Assembly: GCF_013348805.1 (NCBI RefSeq)
Contig: NZ_CP054690.1
Span: 5,518,001 to 5,582,000 of the forward strand
Direction: 5' to 3'
DNA from: Rhodococcus sp. W8901
GTDB taxonomy: Bacteria > Actinomycetota > Actinomycetes > Mycobacteriales > Mycobacteriaceae
Length of the DNA: 64,000 bases
The notes beneath the pieces are model-generated. The model saw only the letters and a list, made by a program, of their open reading frames with translations, was not told the DNA's origin and did not search any database. The position numbers and the translations under genes were made by a program. Shown here one piece after another: positions 20,739 through 55,050 of this stretch (positions are counted from its first letter, which is position 1; every line of letters starts with the position of its first letter).

Positions 20739-21419
20739 TCAGGCGTGGTTCGTGCCGTGATCGGCGAACTCGGCAAAGCTCTCCACCTGGTCAAGGTCCG
20801 GGTCGAGGGCGCGGGCGAGCCAGAGTTCGTACCAGTCGAGGAACGTCAGCGGCTCGCGGGTGTCCGGGTGGAGCACCGGCAGCGCGGCGGCGTGCTCGTA
20901 GCTGTGCCACCACACCTGCCCCGCGGCCGGGCCGCGCAGGATCAGGAGGTCGTACGTGCCGCATCCCTCGTTCGCGAGGAATGTCGCGCCTCGGTGGATC
21001 CGGCCGATGTTCTCCGTCCACTGGAACTCGGAGTCCTCGGCGGCGGGCGGGCAGGGTCGCTCGGCGGTGAAGGGGAAGTCCGCGGCGTAGTCGATCGCGG
21101 CGTCCTCGGCCTCCTGCGCCAGCGGGAGAAGTCCGAGCATCGGTCCGGCTCCGCCGTCGCCCACCCGGGTGATCCACTCGCGGTAGTCGGCCGGAAGGCC
21201 GACGCCGAGCCGGTTCTCGAATGCCGCGAGGACGTCCGGGTCCGCGGTAGCGGCGTGCTCGTAGCGATGCACGGCCGCCCCGTGGATGTGGCAGCTGTAG
21301 CCGATGACCTCCCGGTCGCCGAGCGGGACGACGGTGGTCTTCAGATCGGCTGCTCGTAGTCGGTCGAGGCCGGTCAGGATCTCGGCGATCCGGTCCGGGT
21401 GCGTTTGCGCGTGTTTCAT
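20739..21419 (-). CDS. SMI1/KNR4-family protein
   Basis: Encodes 226 residues from ATG 21419. The SMI1/KNR4 signature is visible: FENRLGVGLPADYREWITRVGDGGAGPM.GLLPL, then IGRIHRGATFLANEGCGTYDLLILRGPAAGQVWW and FLDWYELWLARAL. SMI1/KNR4 proteins are common immunity proteins of contact-dependent and polymorphic toxins. No toxin gene is next to it. Preceded and followed by remnants. Confidence 0.85.
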   Translation of the reverse strand: MKHAQTHPDRIAEILTGLDRLRAADLKTTVVPLGDREVIGYSCHIHGAAVHRYEHAATADPDVLAAFENRLGVGLPADYREWITRVGDGGAGPMLGLLPLAQEAEDAAIDYAADFPFTAERPCPPAAEDSEFQWTENIGRIHRGATFLANEGCGTYDLLILRGPAAGQVWWHSYEHAAALPVLHPDTREPLTFLDWYELWLARALDPDLDQVESFAEFADHGTNHA

Positions 21420-21818
21420 GCTCACATCCTGACGGATGCGACGACTTGCCTCTGAGTTCGGTGACACACCTACATTGACAGGCGCGTCCGACCACGGTCA
21501 AAGTGCACAGGCTACTTTGACGGATCTCGGGAGAGTCGGCGAAGCCCGTCGATATAGGTGTACCGCCGGATCGAAAGGTGGTCTGCTACGCCATGACCCC
21601 ACAACCGGCTCGTTCACGGACCGCACAGCAACGGATCCCACTCCTGGCCGATTGCATCGCGTCGACACGGCGAGAGACGATGCGCCCGTGAGTATCTCCG
21701 ACAAGAAGGCTACCGACCTCAATGCACTCGCGGACGATGGCGAACAGAACGTAGAAAGTGCATCTCGTCCAATCCCGTACGTGCCCAAGTCGCTTTCGGA
21801 CATCGATCTTCGCCATGT
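21420..21818. other. No supported gene
   Basis: Open frames exist on both strands (21436-21822 plus, 21498-21968 minus) but neither shows family features or a convincing start, and both have mixed codon usage. I see nothing else here. Confidence 0.3.
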
Positions 21819-22737: not shown

Positions 22738-23212
22738 GACTCGATTATGGTCGGATTGCTGAAGCCACGCCCCTGGAACCAGATGGAGTGAAGGCGGCGA
22801 CCGTCAGTCCCACACCACGAACACGACGCGTTCGTGTCCGGACACTGCAGGGATCCGGCAGTACTCCTCGCCCGACATCGGACGCCAGTTGACAGTAGAC
22901 ATCGCAGGTAGAGCCCAGGATCGCGTCGAACCGCGCTAGTTAGACCAGCGTCGCGTTTCGCTAATCTTCGCTGCAAGTCGACAGGAGTGTAGGTTCCGGA
23001 TCTACTTGTCCGAGCCGCCTGGGATTTCCGAGATCTTCCGCGACACTTGTCCACGAAATTCCGTGCGAAGATGTCCCTTTCCACAGCCCTGGTCCGAGTC
23101 GAAGCCAGGTCATCGCGGCCAGGCTGACTCTCGGTCTCCACCGTCACCTTTTCGCAGCCCAAGTAGCGCGTAATTCGGGGGACACTGCCCCTAGAAAAGG
23201 AGGTGACTGACG
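22738..23212. other. Remnant region with transposon-end-like element
   Basis: At 22950-22985 a TTTCGCTAATCTTCGCTGCA block is shared with the TnsA-like gene (29.55 kb). At 22991-23163 a good copy of the GTAGGTTCCGGATCTACTTG element follows. A minus-strand tail (SGEEYCRIPAVSGHERVVFV) at about 22800-22890 looks like the end of a lost gene. Confidence 0.55.
22945..23163. repeat. Transposon-end-like element, copy at 23.0 kb
   Basis: Shares blocks in the same order with 37410-37640 and 58761-59010: GTAGGTTCCGGATCTACTTG, TCCGAGCC.CCTGG, GACACTTGTC.ACGAAATTCC, CCACAGCCCTGGTCCGAGTC, GGTCTCCACCGTCACC. No intact open frame is carried. Confidence 0.75.
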
Positions 23213-23320
23213 ATGGGTGACACCTTCTGGTTCCTCCCGTTACCGTATGAGACCCTGCGATGGCCGGCCGCGACCTATCCGTGCCTGGTCGACTTCCAGC
23301 GCAGTTGCTTCCCTGGGTAA
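23213..23320 (+). CDS. Tiny aromatic-rich peptide 1, 35 aa
   Basis: ATG 23213 follows an excellent Shine-Dalgarno (AAAGGAGGTGA). The peptide begins MGDTFWFLPLPYETLRW and ends QRSCFPG, with 2 Trp, 4 Phe, 2 Tyr and 2 Cys. A 10-bp-stem terminator starts 8 nt after the stop. Two similar tiny ORFs occur at 23.8-24.0 kb before a near-identical terminator. Too short for standard gene callers. Function unknown. Confidence 0.55.
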   Translation: MGDTFWFLPLPYETLRWPAATYPCLVDFQRSCFPG

Positions 23321-23327
23321 CGCACAG

Positions 23328-23359
23328 GCGGGCCAGCGAGGTTTGGATTGCTGGCCCGC
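23328..23359. terminator. Bidirectional hairpin terminator 1
   Basis: GCGGGCCAGC / GCTGGCCCGC, perfect 10-bp stem with 12-nt loop, between peptide 1 and the convergent protease remnant. A second copy with a 12-bp stem is at 24061-24095. Confidence 0.75.
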
Positions 23360-23369
23360 TGTCATGCTC

Positions 23370-23546
23370 TCAGTTGTTGGTGACGACGAGGTTGTCGCCG
23401 ACCTGGCTCGGGTTGGAAAGGATGCTGGCGAGGACCGGCGCGAACTTGACGTAGCGGAATCCGTTTGTGTCGACGCCATTCACCATGCCGACGATCTTCG
23501 TGGTGCCGTACATGTAAGCAGGACCGCCCGAGTCACCACCGTTGGA
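23370..23546 (-). pseudogene. Chymotrypsin-type serine protease, C-terminal fragment
   Basis: The frame reads NGGDSGGPAYMYGTTKIVGMV and ends VGDNLVVTNN. GDSGGP is the active-site Ser motif, and the ending matches that of the intact protease at 27895 (FVITNN). The N-terminal part with His and Asp is missing; upstream the DNA switches to another gene (23533-23757). Confidence 0.75.
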
Positions 23547-23757
23547 CGAACCACACGATCAGATCCGGGTCGCATTCTGCGAGCAGCCCGAGAATCCGCT
23601 CGGCTTCGGAAACCGCCGGGTCGACGCATGGCACGGCGTCGGCTGCGGTGGACGTCGGGGTGACGGTGATGGCGAGACAGTATTCGCTGTCGGAAGCTCG
23701 AGCCGGAGCCGCGTAGACAGCTATTTCCACTGGTAGGTGAAGCGGATGTCCATCCAA
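23533..23757 (-). CDS. Hypothetical protein, 74 aa, possibly truncated
   Basis: Reads MDGHPLHLPVEIAVYAAPAR, ..AVSEAERILGLLAECDPDLIVWFVQRW. Codon usage looks coding. Its last few codons overlap, in another frame, the protease fragment's GDSGGP region, so the native end is probably lost at the junction near 23546. Confidence 0.4.
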   Translation of the reverse strand: MDGHPLHLPVEIAVYAAPARASDSEYCLAITVTPTSTAADAVPCVDPAVSEAERILGLLAECDPDLIVWFVQRW

Positions 23758-23836
23758 ATCTTCTGTTCGACCACCTCCGAGGTCTAGCCTGACCTGACAG
23801 GGTCGGGACGGTCAGGCACCCCCCAGGGGTTTGCAC

Positions 23837-23938
23837 ATGATCCCTAATGGCTGGAAGTGGGGACTCCCCTTGCCGCGGGAGTGGCGTCGCACGATCTGGG
23901 CCGTGATCCCATGTGACCTCGGCGGACACTGCACCTGA
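23837..23938 (+). CDS. Tiny Trp-rich peptide 2, 33 aa
   Basis: ATG 23837 follows AGGGG about 9 nt upstream. Peptide starts MIPNGWKWGLPLPREWRRTI and ends CDLGGHCT: 4 Trp, 2 Cys, net basic centre. The next tiny ORF begins 16 nt after its stop, so the two form a mini-operon ending in the 24061 terminator. Unknown function; candidates are a signalling peptide, small toxin or bacteriocin-like peptide. Confidence 0.5.
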   Translation: MIPNGWKWGLPLPREWRRTIWAVIPCDLGGHCT

Positions 23939-23954
23939 CTGGAAGTGAACTCGG

Positions 23955-24044
23955 ATGGACCCATACGGGATTTGGTTCGGCCCCATCGGCAACCTGTTGG
24001 ACATCGTGAACTACTGGCTGACCTACGGGCACCTGCCCGGCTGA
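23955..24044 (+). CDS. Tiny aromatic peptide 3, 29 aa
   Basis: ATG 23955 with GGAAGTGA upstream. Starts MDPYGIWFGPIGNLLDIVNY and ends LTYGHLPG. It is amphipathic with Trp/Tyr/Phe and ends 16 nt before a perfect 12-bp terminator stem. Forms a pair with peptide 2. Confidence 0.5.
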   Translation: MDPYGIWFGPIGNLLDIVNYWLTYGHLPG

Positions 24045-24060
24045 ACGCCTGGAACAACGA

Positions 24061-24095
24061 CAGCGGGCCAGCATGATTCGATTGCTGGCCCGCTG
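24061..24095. terminator. Bidirectional hairpin terminator 2
   Basis: CAGCGGGCCAGC / GCTGGCCCGCTG, perfect 12-bp stem, 11-nt loop. Stem and the following ~25 nt (TGTCATG.GCTCAGTTGTTGG) are nearly the same as at 23328-23390, so terminator plus protease end were duplicated together. Confidence 0.75.
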
Positions 24096-24103
24096 TCATG
24101 CGC

Positions 24104-24130
24104 TCAGTTGTTGGTGACGACGAAATTTCA
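24104..24130 (-). pseudogene. Scar of a second protease 3' end
   Basis: Only the final codons FVVTNN and stop of the protease family are left, next to duplicated terminator 2. The sequence further upstream on this strand is unrelated. Confidence 0.6.
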
Positions 24131-24357: not shown

Positions 24358-24780
24358 GTGATCGATTTCGTTCGCCGATCGGTCGCCTGCGCGGCCATCG
24401 TGGCCGGTTCGGTTCTGGCGCCGGCGGCCGTCGCCTCCGCCGCGGCCACCGTTCCGTTCCAAATCGACCCGGCGCCGTTCGGAAACCCGAACGGCAGCTT
24501 CGACGTACCCGCGTTTCGCTGCGTGGCCGTGGTCGGCGAACAGTCCGGGACGGTGACGATCACCGGCCCGAAGGAGGGCCGGTGGGGATGTCTACTTCCG
24601 TCAAACGTGCACTGGCTGAACCTGTCTAGCGGAGCCTCCGGCTCCGCCCAGATGTCGGGCGGCTTGGACGGACGCCCGGCAGCGGTCCTGCCGACCGGGA
24701 CCGGGCAGGTTGTCGTCGCCGTGGTAATCGATGGCAGCACGATCATCACACCGGGCGTCGCAGCCGTCTACGTTCCGTAG
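24358..24780 (+). CDS. Secreted protein, 140 aa (family with 54370 gene)
   Basis: GTG 24358 is chosen for the Shine-Dalgarno TTGGAGG. A signal peptide runs to VASAAA (about residue 27). The mature domain contains PFQIDPAPFGNPNGSF, RCVAVVGEQSGTVTITGP, VHWLNLSSGASG and ends GVAAVYVP. The gene at 54370 has the same layout (HWRNISTGAAG ... VWTVP), and a truncated third copy is at 54880-55050 on the minus strand. Family name unknown to me; a cell-surface role is likely. Confidence 0.65.
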   Translation: MIDFVRRSVACAAIVAGSVLAPAAVASAAATVPFQIDPAPFGNPNGSFDVPAFRCVAVVGEQSGTVTITGPKEGRWGCLLPSNVHWLNLSSGASGSAQMSGGLDGRPAAVLPTGTGQVVVAVVIDGSTIITPGVAAVYVP

Positions 24781-25186: not shown

Positions 25187-27343
25187 TCAGTCCTCGCCTG
25201 GGCCGACTACCCGCAGCCCCTCGGGTGGCACCTCCCGGACGATGAACTTGTCGTCGATGTCGGTCACGATGGCCACATAGAACACTGGCCGGCCGTCGAT
25301 TTGAACGTGGCATCCGATGTTGAAGCCCAGGAGTCGGGGGATCCGCTGGAGGACTGGTTCGCCGCCCACGATGTCGCCGTCGGGGTGCAGCCGTGCAGCC
25401 TCGGCCAGAATGGCTCGCTGCACGACGTCTCGGTCGATCAGGTCGTCGTCATCGGTCAGCATCGAGAACGATACCGGTTCAGTGCATACGAACGGCACCT
25501 CGAGCTTCATCGGTTGCGACACTCCGTCCTGTGGTGCGGGAGGGACGTAGGGTGCGAACGTGATGCGGTACGCCGCGATCGGCCGATGGGAGCCACGGTC
25601 GATGACGAACGTCCAGTAGCCGTTGTGTGTCGGCACGGTACCGCGCAGCGCTGGTCCCCCGCTCGAGGTCGCGCCCAGGAACTCGTCGTAGCCGAGAAGT
25701 TCAGCGTGCGTTCCATGTTCGGCGTCGCGGGTGTGAGCATGAACCTCGGCCAGTTCGACTTCGAACAGAGACACCGGGTAGCGATACTTCCACCCGGCGA
25801 TCTGGGCGTGGAACTCCCTGAGGGCGTCAGTATCCAGATCGTCTGCGATCCAGTGCGCGATCTCGCGTGTGGTCACTTCCTCGATGGGACGGACGGGTTC
25901 CGGGAATCCACGAAACACTCCGTCCTCGTCGACGCTGTCCGCGAACGATTCGAAGTCCATGTTCGCGATCGACAGGTTGTTCTCCACGCCACACATCTCC
26001 GAGGGAATGACGCGGAAGGTTCTTCCACGAGGCCGTTCCGGTTCGTCGGGCCCGGTGTAGACGGCGACGATGGGCATCTCGGGGTTCTTCACCGTCTCGG
26101 CGTCGACGAGAAACACGTAGTAGGGCGGCGGTTCGCCGATTGCCTCGAGAAGTCCGTCGACGGTCAACCCGTCGTACTCCGGATTGTCGACGCAGGTGAG
26201 GTAGGCGGCGAATTCGGTGTCGCCTTCCTGCGGTACCGGAGCCATGGCTGCTACGGCAATGTCCCGCCAGGCGGCGTCGTCGCTGAAATCTGTACGGATG
26301 AGCAGTGACTCGTCCTCGAGATGGTCGGCAAGGACTCGTCCCGTTCCGAGAGTGGCGAGCACCTCCGCTTCGCGGCGATCGTGCTCCTCGATGGCTAGTT
26401 CGGCCGTGATATCAGCGGGATCGCGATCAGGTGGGTCGACTGGAACGATCGAGTCCACGATCCGAACACAGTCGTCCCGGTTGATCTCCTGGTAGCTGCG
26501 GATTTCGTATGTCCAGTCACCGATGGACTGGCGGTAGCGTTCCGGTGTCGAATCGTTCGGCCACTCGGCTTTCGGTTCGCCGATCGCTGTCACCCATCGG
26601 CGCAGTGTGAACTGTGGCGTATACCCGCTGATCGACAGACTCAGTTCGCCGGCGCGAGCATCGCCGGATTGAGGCTGCACGTTTGTCGTCATCGGCAGCC
26701 ACGTCGGAAGCGCCTGAGGAATCCCGGCCAGAACGCGCTGACGTTCCTCGTGCTCGCGGTGGAATTTCGCGATGTCGTCCTCGGCCGGGCGTGACGGGCC
26801 TGTCCATGTGAACAACGTGGGCTCGAATGCGTCGTCCAGGCTGGGGTTTTCGAGCTCCATCCAGTCCTCGCCCTGCTGCCACCGCACTGCGATACCGAGT
26901 TCCGCGTCGAACACGTAGGTGACCGTTTCGTTCGCATGCTGGTCGAGGGCGCTCACCTCCCAACCGTCGCGGCCACGAACGCGGACTGCTCTGGGTGCAC
27001 TCGGTCCGACGAATCGTTGGTCGTCGAACCCGCGAGTTGTCTTGGCAGGAAACACGCCGTAGGCGCGTAGAAGAAGGGACGGCGAGCCAGTACCCATGGT
27101 TGCGTAGATGGTGTTGGGGGACTTGACGGCGTGGACCATAGTGCCGTCCTCATCGCGCGACCATCTGTCGGTGGTGTTCTCGATGAAAGTGGGCTCACCG
27201 GAGTCGTTCTCGTAGCGCCAAGCCTCCTCAGGCGCGTGCCACACGCGTTCCCGAGATCCGTCTGGCCGGTGGACAGTTCCGCGAGCGGTCCGTCCCATCG
27301 TGCCGTAGTTCGAGCCTCGGACCTGTTCCCACGTCGGCGTCAT
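25187..27343 (-). CDS. Large multidomain protein with DUF6924-like domain, 718 aa
   Basis: No signal peptide or membrane helix. Residues 1-300 form a beta-rich region with MTPTWEQVRGSNYGTMGRTARGTVHRPDGSRERVW, resembling actinobacterial RseB/LolA-like sensor domains. Residues ~345-490 read LLIRTDFSDDAAWRDIAVAAM..., FAAYLTCVDNPEYDGLTVDGLLEAIG, FRVIPSEMCGVENNLSIANMDFESFADSVDEDGVFRGFP, which fits DUF6924. A third unassigned domain of about 220 residues follows. Probably a fusion of immunity-type modules. Acidic throughout. Confidence 0.6.
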   Translation of the reverse strand: MTPTWEQVRGSNYGTMGRTARGTVHRPDGSRERVWHAPEEAWRYENDSGEPTFIENTTDRWSRDEDGTMVHAVKSPNTIYATMGTGSPSLLLRAYGVFPAKTTRGFDDQRFVGPSAPRAVRVRGRDGWEVSALDQHANETVTYVFDAELGIAVRWQQGEDWMELENPSLDDAFEPTLFTWTGPSRPAEDDIAKFHREHEERQRVLAGIPQALPTWLPMTTNVQPQSGDARAGELSLSISGYTPQFTLRRWVTAIGEPKAEWPNDSTPERYRQSIGDWTYEIRSYQEINRDDCVRIVDSIVPVDPPDRDPADITAELAIEEHDRREAEVLATLGTGRVLADHLEDESLLIRTDFSDDAAWRDIAVAAMAPVPQEGDTEFAAYLTCVDNPEYDGLTVDGLLEAIGEPPPYYVFLVDAETVKNPEMPIVAVYTGPDEPERPRGRTFRVIPSEMCGVENNLSIANMDFESFADSVDEDGVFRGFPEPVRPIEEVTTREIAHWIADDLDTDALREFHAQIAGWKYRYPVSLFEVELAEVHAHTRDAEHGTHAELLGYDEFLGATSSGGPALRGTVPTHNGYWTFVIDRGSHRPIAAYRITFAPYVPPAPQDGVSQPMKLEVPFVCTEPVSFSMLTDDDDLIDRDVVQRAILAEAARLHPDGDIVGGEPVLQRIPRLLGFNIGCHVQIDGRPVFYVAIVTDIDDKFIVREVPPEGLRVVGPGED

Positions 27344-27894: not shown

Positions 27895-28986
27895 ATGAAG
27901 CGCACCACCCGACTACTCGCGGGAGCGTTCGCCGCCCTGGCCATGACCGTGGGGCTCACAGCCACGACGACCAACACCGCCGCGGCGGTCGGCACAGACG
28001 CAAGTCCACGGGATTACCAGCCGTACGATCCGGCCACAGTCAGCTCGGTCCCCATCGCGTATCCCGGCATGTTCATCGATTTCACCGGCGACATGAGTCC
28101 CAAATCTGCCACAGATACCGCGTTGAAATACTGGGGTAAGTACTGCACGCTCGGCGTCGTCGGAACCGATTCGGCAGGCCGAAAGATCGGAATCACCGCA
28201 GGTCACTGCAACGAAGCGCAACTGGTGCCGGACCCCGCGAATCCTGGACAGCTCAAAAAGCCCGGACTAGACGCGAACCTGGAACCGTGCACCACCAGCC
28301 AGGCGGCCTGCACCTATCCGGACTACCCCAAATACCCCGGTGTCAAACCCGGCACATCCGTTACGAACAACGATCACCCCGTTTACGACTTCAACGCCGT
28401 CAAGTATGCGCAGAAGAACAATAAGCCACAGGTGAACCCCATCGGATGGGTCCGTTGGGTAGATGCGAATGGTCTCCTGCCGGACGGCGAGCAGAACCTG
28501 GAGACAACCACCGACTACATGGTCATCGAGTTCGCCCCCGAGGTCCAGCTGTCGAGTCAGGTGAGGGACAAGGACGGCAATGCCGCTCGCCAGTCAGGCG
28601 GGGGTCTCTTCAAGGTCAATTCGATCTACAGCGGTGCCGGCGGGGCTCCTGCCCTGCCTCCGATTGCCATCGGGCTCAATACTTCCACCTGGATCGAAAA
28701 CTACGGCGCACGCTCTGACCGCACCCCCGACATCTTCTCGGTCGGGGTTAATCGAGGGGCGGTAGGCGCGGTCAACAACGGCATCATCCGTTCCTACGCC
28801 GCCAATAAGAACGGCGATTCCGGCGGGCCTGTTGTTATGAACGGCACCGGCAAGTGGGTCGGAATCACATTCAGTGCGGTTCCCGGACTTGTGTCGCCGT
28901 ACAGCTCCACGTCCGCCAAGAACATCCTCGACAACCTGAACTCGCGCAACGACGTCGGCAGCGGCTTCGTCATCACCAACAACTGA
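27895..28986 (+). CDS. Secreted chymotrypsin-type (S1) serine protease
   Basis: Encodes 363 residues from ATG 27895. Signal peptide: MKRTTRLLAGAFAALAMTVG up to about TAAAVG. Catalytic His is in GITAGHC, the Asp probably in TTDYMVIEF and the Ser in NKNGDSGGPVVMNG. Cys pairs (YCTLG/GHC and CTTSQAAC) may form disulfides. The C-terminus VGSGFVITNN matches those of two remnants at 23.4 and 24.1 kb. It probably works outside the cell. Confidence 0.85.
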   Translation: MKRTTRLLAGAFAALAMTVGLTATTTNTAAAVGTDASPRDYQPYDPATVSSVPIAYPGMFIDFTGDMSPKSATDTALKYWGKYCTLGVVGTDSAGRKIGITAGHCNEAQLVPDPANPGQLKKPGLDANLEPCTTSQAACTYPDYPKYPGVKPGTSVTNNDHPVYDFNAVKYAQKNNKPQVNPIGWVRWVDANGLLPDGEQNLETTTDYMVIEFAPEVQLSSQVRDKDGNAARQSGGGLFKVNSIYSGAGGAPALPPIAIGLNTSTWIENYGARSDRTPDIFSVGVNRGAVGAVNNGIIRSYAANKNGDSGGPVVMNGTGKWVGITFSAVPGLVSPYSSTSAKNILDNLNSRNDVGSGFVITNN

Positions 28987-29587
28987 CATCTAGTGTCGCC
29001 ATGAGCCCCGCAGGACCGCGTCCGGGCCTGCGGGGCTCGTCGCTGTAGCGGCGGCGAGCTGACGACTGTGATGTTCGCGGTCGTCGTCGAGCCGGGCGAG
29101 CCTGGATGGGTCTCGCCGGTTCGGGCACCTCAACGAGGCCCTGCCACTTCGGCCTTCTTCGATATCCGTGCAGCCACAACAGATTGAGTCGTTCGACCTT
29201 CCCAAGACCCGTGAAGATCTCGTATCGCCATTCGACAGCCGCACACGCCGAGCGGGTCTTGTCCGCCTGCAAGGTGAACTTTTCATCCAGCCGCCGCGGA
29301 TTCCGCACACCCCATAGGGTTACGGCGCCATCAGCATCGGTAGACAACAGGTCCGGCACGTGACGGAACTTGCGCGGCTCCGTCCAGCGCAGCTCAACCG
29401 GTTGCGCAACCAGCCAGGTGATCGAAGACAGCCGATCGAGTCTGCGCAGCAAATCGTGCTCAAGCCCGGACTCGAGCGCGAGGTGCCCACCCGTGGTGGT
29501 CGAGAAAGCGGTCGAAGGCAGCGATTCGGTAGATCGGCTCGCTAAAGTAGCGTCGCGTTTCGCTAATCTTCGCTGCAGGTCGACAAC
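28973..29587 (-). pseudogene. TnsA-like transposase endonuclease, probably degraded
   Basis: The frame contains LALESGLEHDLLRRLDRL (catalytic Glu region), WLVAQPVELRWTEPRKFRHVPDLLSTDADGAV (catalytic Asp region) and RSACAAVEWRYEIFTGL, the pattern of actinobacterial TnsA-like heteromeric transposase subunits. The usual D-V-K motif is replaced by LWGVRNP, so the catalytic Lys is missing. No good start is found and the C-terminal part runs through the protease terminator. The N-terminal DNA (TTTCGCTAATCTTCGCTGCA) recurs at 22.95 kb. Confidence 0.6.
29003..29039. terminator. Terminator after the protease
   Basis: GAGCCCCGCAG ... CTGCGGGGCTC, an 11-bp stem with a GC-rich loop, 17 nt after the protease stop. 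Confidence 0.75.
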
Positions 29588-54369: not shown

Positions 54370-54795
54370 ATGAGACCACGCCACCGTCTACGCCGAGCAT
54401 CCATCGTCGCCGGAGCCGGCGTTGTACTGCTTCTCGCGGCACACCCAGCCGCCGCCGCACCGACCGACACTGTCTTCCCCATTCCCGTCGCCGCCCTCGG
54501 TCTCAGCGTCGGTTCGAGCGAACTCCCGAGGTCGGGCTACACCTACGTGACCGCCACTACCGATACTGACACTCCGGGAGTGACCCGTTTGGGGCCGTAC
54601 ATCGGTGTCCACGTCCACTGGCGAAACATCTCGACCGGTGCAGCGGGTGTCGCATACCTCGGCAACCGCGACGGCACACTGGTCGAGACCGGTTCCGGGA
54701 CGGTGGTCGCCGTGGCCACGGTGCCCCAGCCCGATGGGATCTTCTTCCTGATAGTCGTCAGCACACCCGGCGCCGGTGTCTGGACGGTCCCCTGA
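54370..54795 (+). CDS. Secreted protein, 141 aa (paralogue of 24358 gene)
   Basis: ATG 54370 after GGGAGG. Signal peptide RASIVAGAGVVLLLAAHPAAAA; mature part PTDTVFPIPVAALGL..., VHWRNISTGAAGVAYL, GSGTVVAVATV, ending GAGVWTVP. Its layout follows the 24358 protein. Unknown role at the cell surface or outside. Confidence 0.65.
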   Translation: MRPRHRLRRASIVAGAGVVLLLAAHPAAAAPTDTVFPIPVAALGLSVGSSELPRSGYTYVTATTDTDTPGVTRLGPYIGVHVHWRNISTGAAGVAYLGNRDGTLVETGSGTVVAVATVPQPDGIFFLIVVSTPGAGVWTVP

Positions 54796-54879
54796 CCGAC
54801 TCGGCAGCCGCACCCGGACCGTAGCTGGAGCTGCTCGAGGCGTTGAGCGGGGGCCTCACCGGCGTGGCCGCACCGCCGA

Positions 54880-55050
54880 CGCCGGCACACTCCCAGGCTG
54901 TTCGCCGACCACGGCCCAGCAGCGGATCGAGGGAACGTCGAGGCTGCCGTACGGGTTTCCGAACGGCGCTGGGTTGATCTGGAACGGAACGATGACCGCG
55001 GCGGAGGCGATGGCTGCCGGGGCCAGAACCGAACCGGAGCTTTCGACGCA
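54880..55050 (-). pseudogene. Third copy of the secreted-protein family, truncated
   Basis: Minus-strand frame GSVLAPAAIASAAVIVPFQINPAPFGNPYGSLDVPSIRCWAVVGEQPGSV closely matches residues ~17-60 of the 24358 protein. The signal-peptide start is cut about 10-20 nt from palindromic repeat I (55059), and the C-terminal half is missing. Confidence 0.7.

Follow-up and report, generated by a model that had tools for sequence, protein, structure and literature searches.

The question raised by positions 23,213 to 24,130 of a 64,000-nucleotide stretch of the Rhodococcus sp. W8901 genome (the window; positions 5,518,001-5,582,000 of the 5.71 Mb genome) is whether three tiny open reading frames (ORFs) rich in tryptophan, tyrosine and phenylalanine are genes, and what they do opposite the ends of secreted proteases encoded on the other strand. 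Comparison with other genomes showed, at the level of sequence, that the frames are genes and that they belong to a rhodococcal family encoding leaderless peptides rich in Trp, Tyr and Phe, which fall into three types (A, B and D). Several groups of these peptides are under strong purifying selection, the genes form operons on plasmids, phage and chromosomal islands, and the unit of peptide gene(s), hairpin and convergent secreted S1 protease exists intact outside the window.

The peptide frames and their family

An earlier note on this DNA described aromatic-rich frames of 35, 33 and 29 codons, and all three are present on the + strand. They are listed with a putative remnant just upstream:

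23213..23320, + strand: pep1, type A (subtype MGDTFWF..PC..C), 35 amino acids (aa), Shine-Dalgarno sequence (SD) AAGGAGGTGAC, hidden Markov model (HMM) match E 1e-10
23837..23938, + strand: pep2, type A (subtype PLPREWRRTIWAVIPCDLGGHC), 33 aa, HMM match E 8e-14, weak SD, paralogue in the same genome (L048)
23955..24044, + strand: pep3, type B, 29 aa, HMM match E 2.5e-13, 79% identical counterpart in a second species of the genus
23174..23194, + strand: putative type A C-terminal remnant (..FGGHCP*) read from the sequence, its ending matching pep2 and relatives

Ribosome-binding sites had been claimed for all three frames; the SD is near-perfect in pep1 and moderate in pep3 (GGAAGTG), but that of pep2 is weak. 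The proposal that two of the peptides form a mini-operon agrees with the spacing of 16 nt between pep2 and pep3. Among the 57 SD-preceded ORFs of 25 to 41 aa in the window, only 2 had an aromatic content as high as that of these peptides.

Peptides of the family are tryptophan-rich and range from 25 to 41 residues. In the studied loci, some of which overlap so that counts of ORFs and pairs include repeats, family profiles matched 104 short ORFs of types A, B and D below E 1e-4, and 89 of these start with ATG. When the 371 kb of locus DNA were reversed, no profile match was obtained at the same threshold. Conservation of the frames elsewhere, which had been set beforehand as a test, was thus found both in the counterpart of pep3 and in the family at large. 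Type A peptides average 35 aa and have a conserved cysteine pair at the end. Those of type B, about 30 aa long, begin with [F/W]xGP and have an aromatic helix that is amphipathic, and those of type D are about 26-28 aa long, with the consensus VPxWLYDxLYQLWLWGIPP. With starts placed by the SD, the peptides are leaderless and average 35 aa (A), 30 aa (B) and 31 aa (D); mean net charge was -1.0 to -1.1 for the three types. Adjacent same-strand peptide genes are closely spaced, mostly by -1 to 26 nt (45 of 55 pairs at no more than 26 nt).

Relatives of pep1 were found in its own genome, in G001 (P. defluvii), on the SGAir0479 plasmid and on pVAPB. Searches with pep3 gave clear relatives in the same genus only, each within a cluster of tiny SD-preceded aromatic ORFs. 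Of the 14 genomes of the genus surveyed by profile, 11 carry type A and 8 carry type B, and type A is also present in further rhodococcal genera. Outside the rhodococci, scans of order and phylum samples gave chance-level matches only, and a type A profile found no relative in IMG/VR. Nothing convincingly similar to the peptides was present in Pfam, NCBIfam, PADLOC, PHROGs or PDB, and the peptide sequence strings were not found in the literature searched. Because it is absent from these libraries and papers, the family is judged to be new and is apparently undescribed.

Comparison of codons revealed the constraint on the peptide sequences. The type A genes of pVAPA and pVAPN differ at 14 positions, 13 synonymous and 1 nonsynonymous. 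There are 22 differences between pep1 and its pVAPB copy, mostly synonymous, a pattern as extreme as which was obtained in 0 of 2000 random placements. The ratio of nonsynonymous to synonymous differences (pN/pS) was 0.16 for group A2, 0.10 for A4, 0.16 for B1 and 0.27 for B2; the A1 group, which is more divergent, gave 0.40. The codon selection and the empty reversed-DNA control rule out chance ORFs. An antisense artefact was likewise rejected: other reading frames lack comparable constraint, apart from one antisense frame, in which the degenerate positions fall where those of the peptide frame do.

Peptide operons on plasmids, phage and chromosomal islands

As the earlier note had anticipated, annotation mostly misses these peptides, and most of the family is unannotated. 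Type B was found in 36 and type A in 28 plasmid records, mostly of Prescottella equi and mostly without annotation. The operons of pVAPA and pVAPB have a recombinase gene on one side and one for ParB on the other, and pVAPN1572 carries five peptides consecutively. The operons in the plasmid backbones, mostly unannotated, are as follows:

NC_011151.1 52737-53074: peptide operon, pVAPA1037
NC_011150.1 53132-53538: peptide operon, pVAPB1593
NZ_KX443401.1 104918-105424: peptide operon, pVAPN1572

On chromosomes, the same site in two species (L048 and L051) holds differing sets of peptides, and some clusters contain transposase-like genes. In the R. equi phage Madraxi, two peptides of type B are encoded on the reverse strand among the tail genes, beneath the annotated forward gene gp4. 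Its relative Jflix2 keeps a neighbouring phage peptide and lacks about 1.1 kb comprising the type B peptides, a hairpin and a protease; relative to Jflix2, this module of Madraxi is an insertion.

The hairpin and the convergent S1 protease

In the window, both groups of peptide genes end at a hairpin followed by protease codons on the opposite strand:

23327..23360, no strand assigned: hairpin (likely terminator) between pep1 and the first protease remnant, -27.2 kcal/mol, z -5.7
23370..23549, - strand: C-terminal remnant of an S1 (chymotrypsin-type) secreted protease, GDSGGP..VVTNN, 59 codons, related to the intact proteases of the same genome and of phage
24059..24097, no strand assigned: hairpin (likely terminator) after pep3, -32.4 kcal/mol, z -7.6
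24104..24127, - strand: second S1 protease copy, of which the last ~7 codons (NFVVTNN*) remain

These positions bear out the earlier account of a near-identical duplicated hairpin facing convergent protease ends in VVTNN. The duplicated stretches (23343-23389 and 24077-24123) are 96% identical, and the 57 bp surrounding the hairpin after pep3 are 91% identical to the hairpin of Madraxi. The stability of both hairpins far exceeds that of shuffled sequences, and they are likely terminators, as had been proposed. However, no T-run was found after either one, so that this role is deduced from position. Integron-like cassettes were considered and dropped because most gene ends lack such a hairpin.

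A unit of peptide gene(s), terminator and convergent protease had been thought to have existed at least twice, and intact examples were found in the phage, in the same genome and in large-genome Rhodococcus. In Madraxi the protease is gp3 (263 aa), which is annotated as a minor tail protein, carries a signal peptide and GDSGGP and lies opposite the peptides across the hairpin:

L183 (PP978820.1) 1301-2536: gp3, reading as a secreted S1 protease, and reverse-strand peptide operon overlapped by gp4

At 3.25 Mb in the W8901 genome (L184), an intact 262-aa protease with GDSGGP, 63% identical to gp3, faces a type B gene. A signal peptide and the His/Asp/Ser motifs, the latter read by eye, are present in both copies. 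Searches with gp3 gave no Pfam or PHROG match at E 0.01, and no relative of the phage protease was found in IMG/VR. A search for peptides beside intact S1 proteases in other Rhodococcus had been suggested, and it led to another peptide. In four large-genome Rhodococcus (8.8-10.3 Mb), the intact protease lies opposite a 27-aa peptide, MDNWWLYYSPFPQPVREWLWL(I/M)VQQ(L/I)W, and a fifth genome has the same sequence in a longer frame; in these four to five genomes, MDNWWLYYSPFPQPVREWLWLIVQQLW is located 15-64 nt past the protease stop. This peptide is similar to the MDNWFLFWP subtype of type A but lacks the cysteine pair and scores weakly (E 0.02-0.03).

Further tails of the protease lie beyond peptide operons at three R. 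tukisamuensis loci and in P. subtropica, for a total of six remnant units across three species. At several sites only the last 7-12 protease codons persist beside the operons (L110 10475, L170 2295 and window 24104). The intact secreted protease of the window (27895-28986; weak Rv1815-family match, ending in VITNN) was rejected as the source of the remnants. An obligate pairing of peptide and protease is not supported, because no protease adjoins the plasmid operons or many of the chromosomal clusters, and nine Prescottella core protease orthologues have no such peptide alongside.

Directly downstream of pep3 lies a gene that the earlier sequence-only reading had overlooked:

24358..24780, + strand: S140, a secreted protein of ~140 aa with a signal peptide and one conserved cysteine pair, no Pfam match

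Among 301 genomes sampled from the family, 72 encode S140, usually as a single copy, and its paralogues stand inside or beside 11 peptide clusters, sometimes overlapping or adjoining a peptide gene by a few nucleotides (L048 and L058). The predicted fold is a weakly supported Ig/FN3-like sandwich (best E 0.04, model pLDDT 69). Further broken or partial S140 copies occur at 54394-55041 of the window. A peptide operon with S140 inside was also seen on a 5,756-bp contig labelled Variovorax boronicumulans (L106), which is probably rhodococcal contamination.

A 33-bp direct repeat (window 22951-22983 and 29553-29585) occurs exactly twice in the genome and brackets the peptides, S140 and the other protease; in genome G002 it also occurs twice, 199 bp apart (L058 1852 and 2051). 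The window further encodes an SMI1/KNR4 (SUKH) protein and a DUF6924 protein (20739-21467 and 25187-27343). A secreted protein related to a DUF1524-annotated gene was seen near peptide operons at L061, L064 and L121.

Possible roles of the peptides

The mobility of the genes, their operon structure and their secreted neighbours lead us to favor, at slightly less than even confidence, a multi-component competition or exclusion module in which the peptides act jointly at a membrane or the envelope. The peptides would be translated in vivo from multi-gene operons that travel on plasmids, phage and chromosomal islands. The leaderless peptides may act together at the inner membrane or the mycomembrane, with a presumed benefit in competition, exclusion or alteration of the envelope. 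The S1 protease, convergent across the common hairpin, and S140 would serve as extracellular helpers, for example in processing, clearing or self-protection. Helical moments above those of shuffled sequences for type B (z 4.0) and type D (z 2.8) are consistent with such a site of action. The AF2 model of type A has two short helices (pLDDT 71, pTM 0.38).

Several results weigh against this interpretation. Helical amphipathicity of type A did not exceed that of shuffles, and hydrophobicity of transmembrane grade (KD19 ≥ 1.6) was found in 0 of 50 type A, 6 of 34 type B and 0 of 9 type D peptides. Taken alone, the pairwise codon tests of pep2 (P 0.13) and pep3 (P 0.12), each based on a single pair, were not significant. 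Both protease copies opposite the peptides in the window are dead remnants. Several peptide clusters lack both protease and S140, so that neither can be a helper throughout the family, and within 7 kb of the peptide operons no gene for immunity or transport recurs.

PorA and PorH of Corynebacterium are leaderless proteins of 40-57 aa, encoded by tandem genes, with an unknown export route. Tiny mycomembrane channel or envelope peptides working in the same way would match the peptides here in approximate size, hydrophobicity, missing signal sequence, paired genes and hosts with a mycolic-acid envelope; PorACur is one such protein, and PorACj, at 40 aa, has no presequence (PMC3792995). However, the peptides here are shorter and Trp-rich, type A is Cys-rich, and the genes are accessory and mobile rather than core. 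Pfam and NCBIfam gave no match for them, and neither groEL2 nor ppk2, between which PorA/PorH lie, was seen around the operons examined, whose flanking chromosomal genes were judged by eye and annotation and only partly by profile. Moreover, the channels known from Rhodococcus to date are MspA-like proteins, which are larger and exported by Sec (PMC9233653). This explanation seems unlikely, and the same can be said of a multi-peptide leaderless bacteriocin that is secreted unprocessed and kills related rhodococci, with the protease or S140 as immunity. The size, the missing leader, the Trp content and the tandem arrangement of several peptides per operon on phage and plasmids do resemble that class (PMC11580447, PMC6131525), which includes aureocin A70, garvicin KS and the aureocin A53-like peptides of Actinomycetota and can be plasmid-borne. 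Aureocin A53-like peptides are cationic, with a reported mean net charge of +4.63 (PMC11580447), whereas the peptides here are acidic, type A has its cysteine pair, there is no library match, and no ABC transporter or immunity gene recurs. Each of these two readings thus fails a tested defining feature, namely gene location for PorA/PorH and charge and operon partners for bacteriocins.

An envelope-acting, moron-like module for superinfection or conjugation exclusion appears quite unlikely. The extra reverse-strand cassette between the tail genes of Madraxi, absent from a relative, is like a phage moron, and the position between recombinase and ParB genes on conjugative plasmids would fit, but the family is also plasmid- and chromosome-borne, its tiny peptides have a facing protease gene, there is a single phage record and PADLOC gave no match. 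The earlier suggestion that the peptides are protease partners (inhibitors, substrates or chaperones) stands insofar as linked units recur, both intact and as remnants, but it is not general, given the unpaired operons and orthologues, and the convergent genes are not co-transcribed; as an account of the family we regard it as very unlikely. The linked protease, with its signal peptide and AHC..DYLVI..GDSGGP motifs, is like other secreted S1 serine proteases of mycolata, but linkage of these to tiny peptides over a common hairpin was not found in the literature searched. Addiction peptides resembling type I toxin-antitoxin systems are highly improbable: short hydrophobic plasmid peptides lie close to a partition gene, but types A and D do not reach transmembrane-grade hydrophobicity, and conserved three-type operons would be unusual.

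Beyond the favored competition or exclusion module, it is possible, if doubtful, that chromosomes, conjugative virulence-plasmid backbones and phage share a mobile micropeptide system in which leaderless Trp-rich peptides, exported with no recognized signal, work with the S1 protease and S140 to remodel the mycolic-acid envelope. The family would count as less new should the peptides prove to be bacteriocins or channels. If the present interpretation is correct, the well-studied R. equi plasmids (pVAPA, pVAPB and pVAPN) and rhodococcal genomes carry a largely unannotated layer of tiny genes, and the module, available in intact, phage-borne and plasmid-borne forms, would offer a handle on tiny leaderless peptides in mycolic-acid bacteria.
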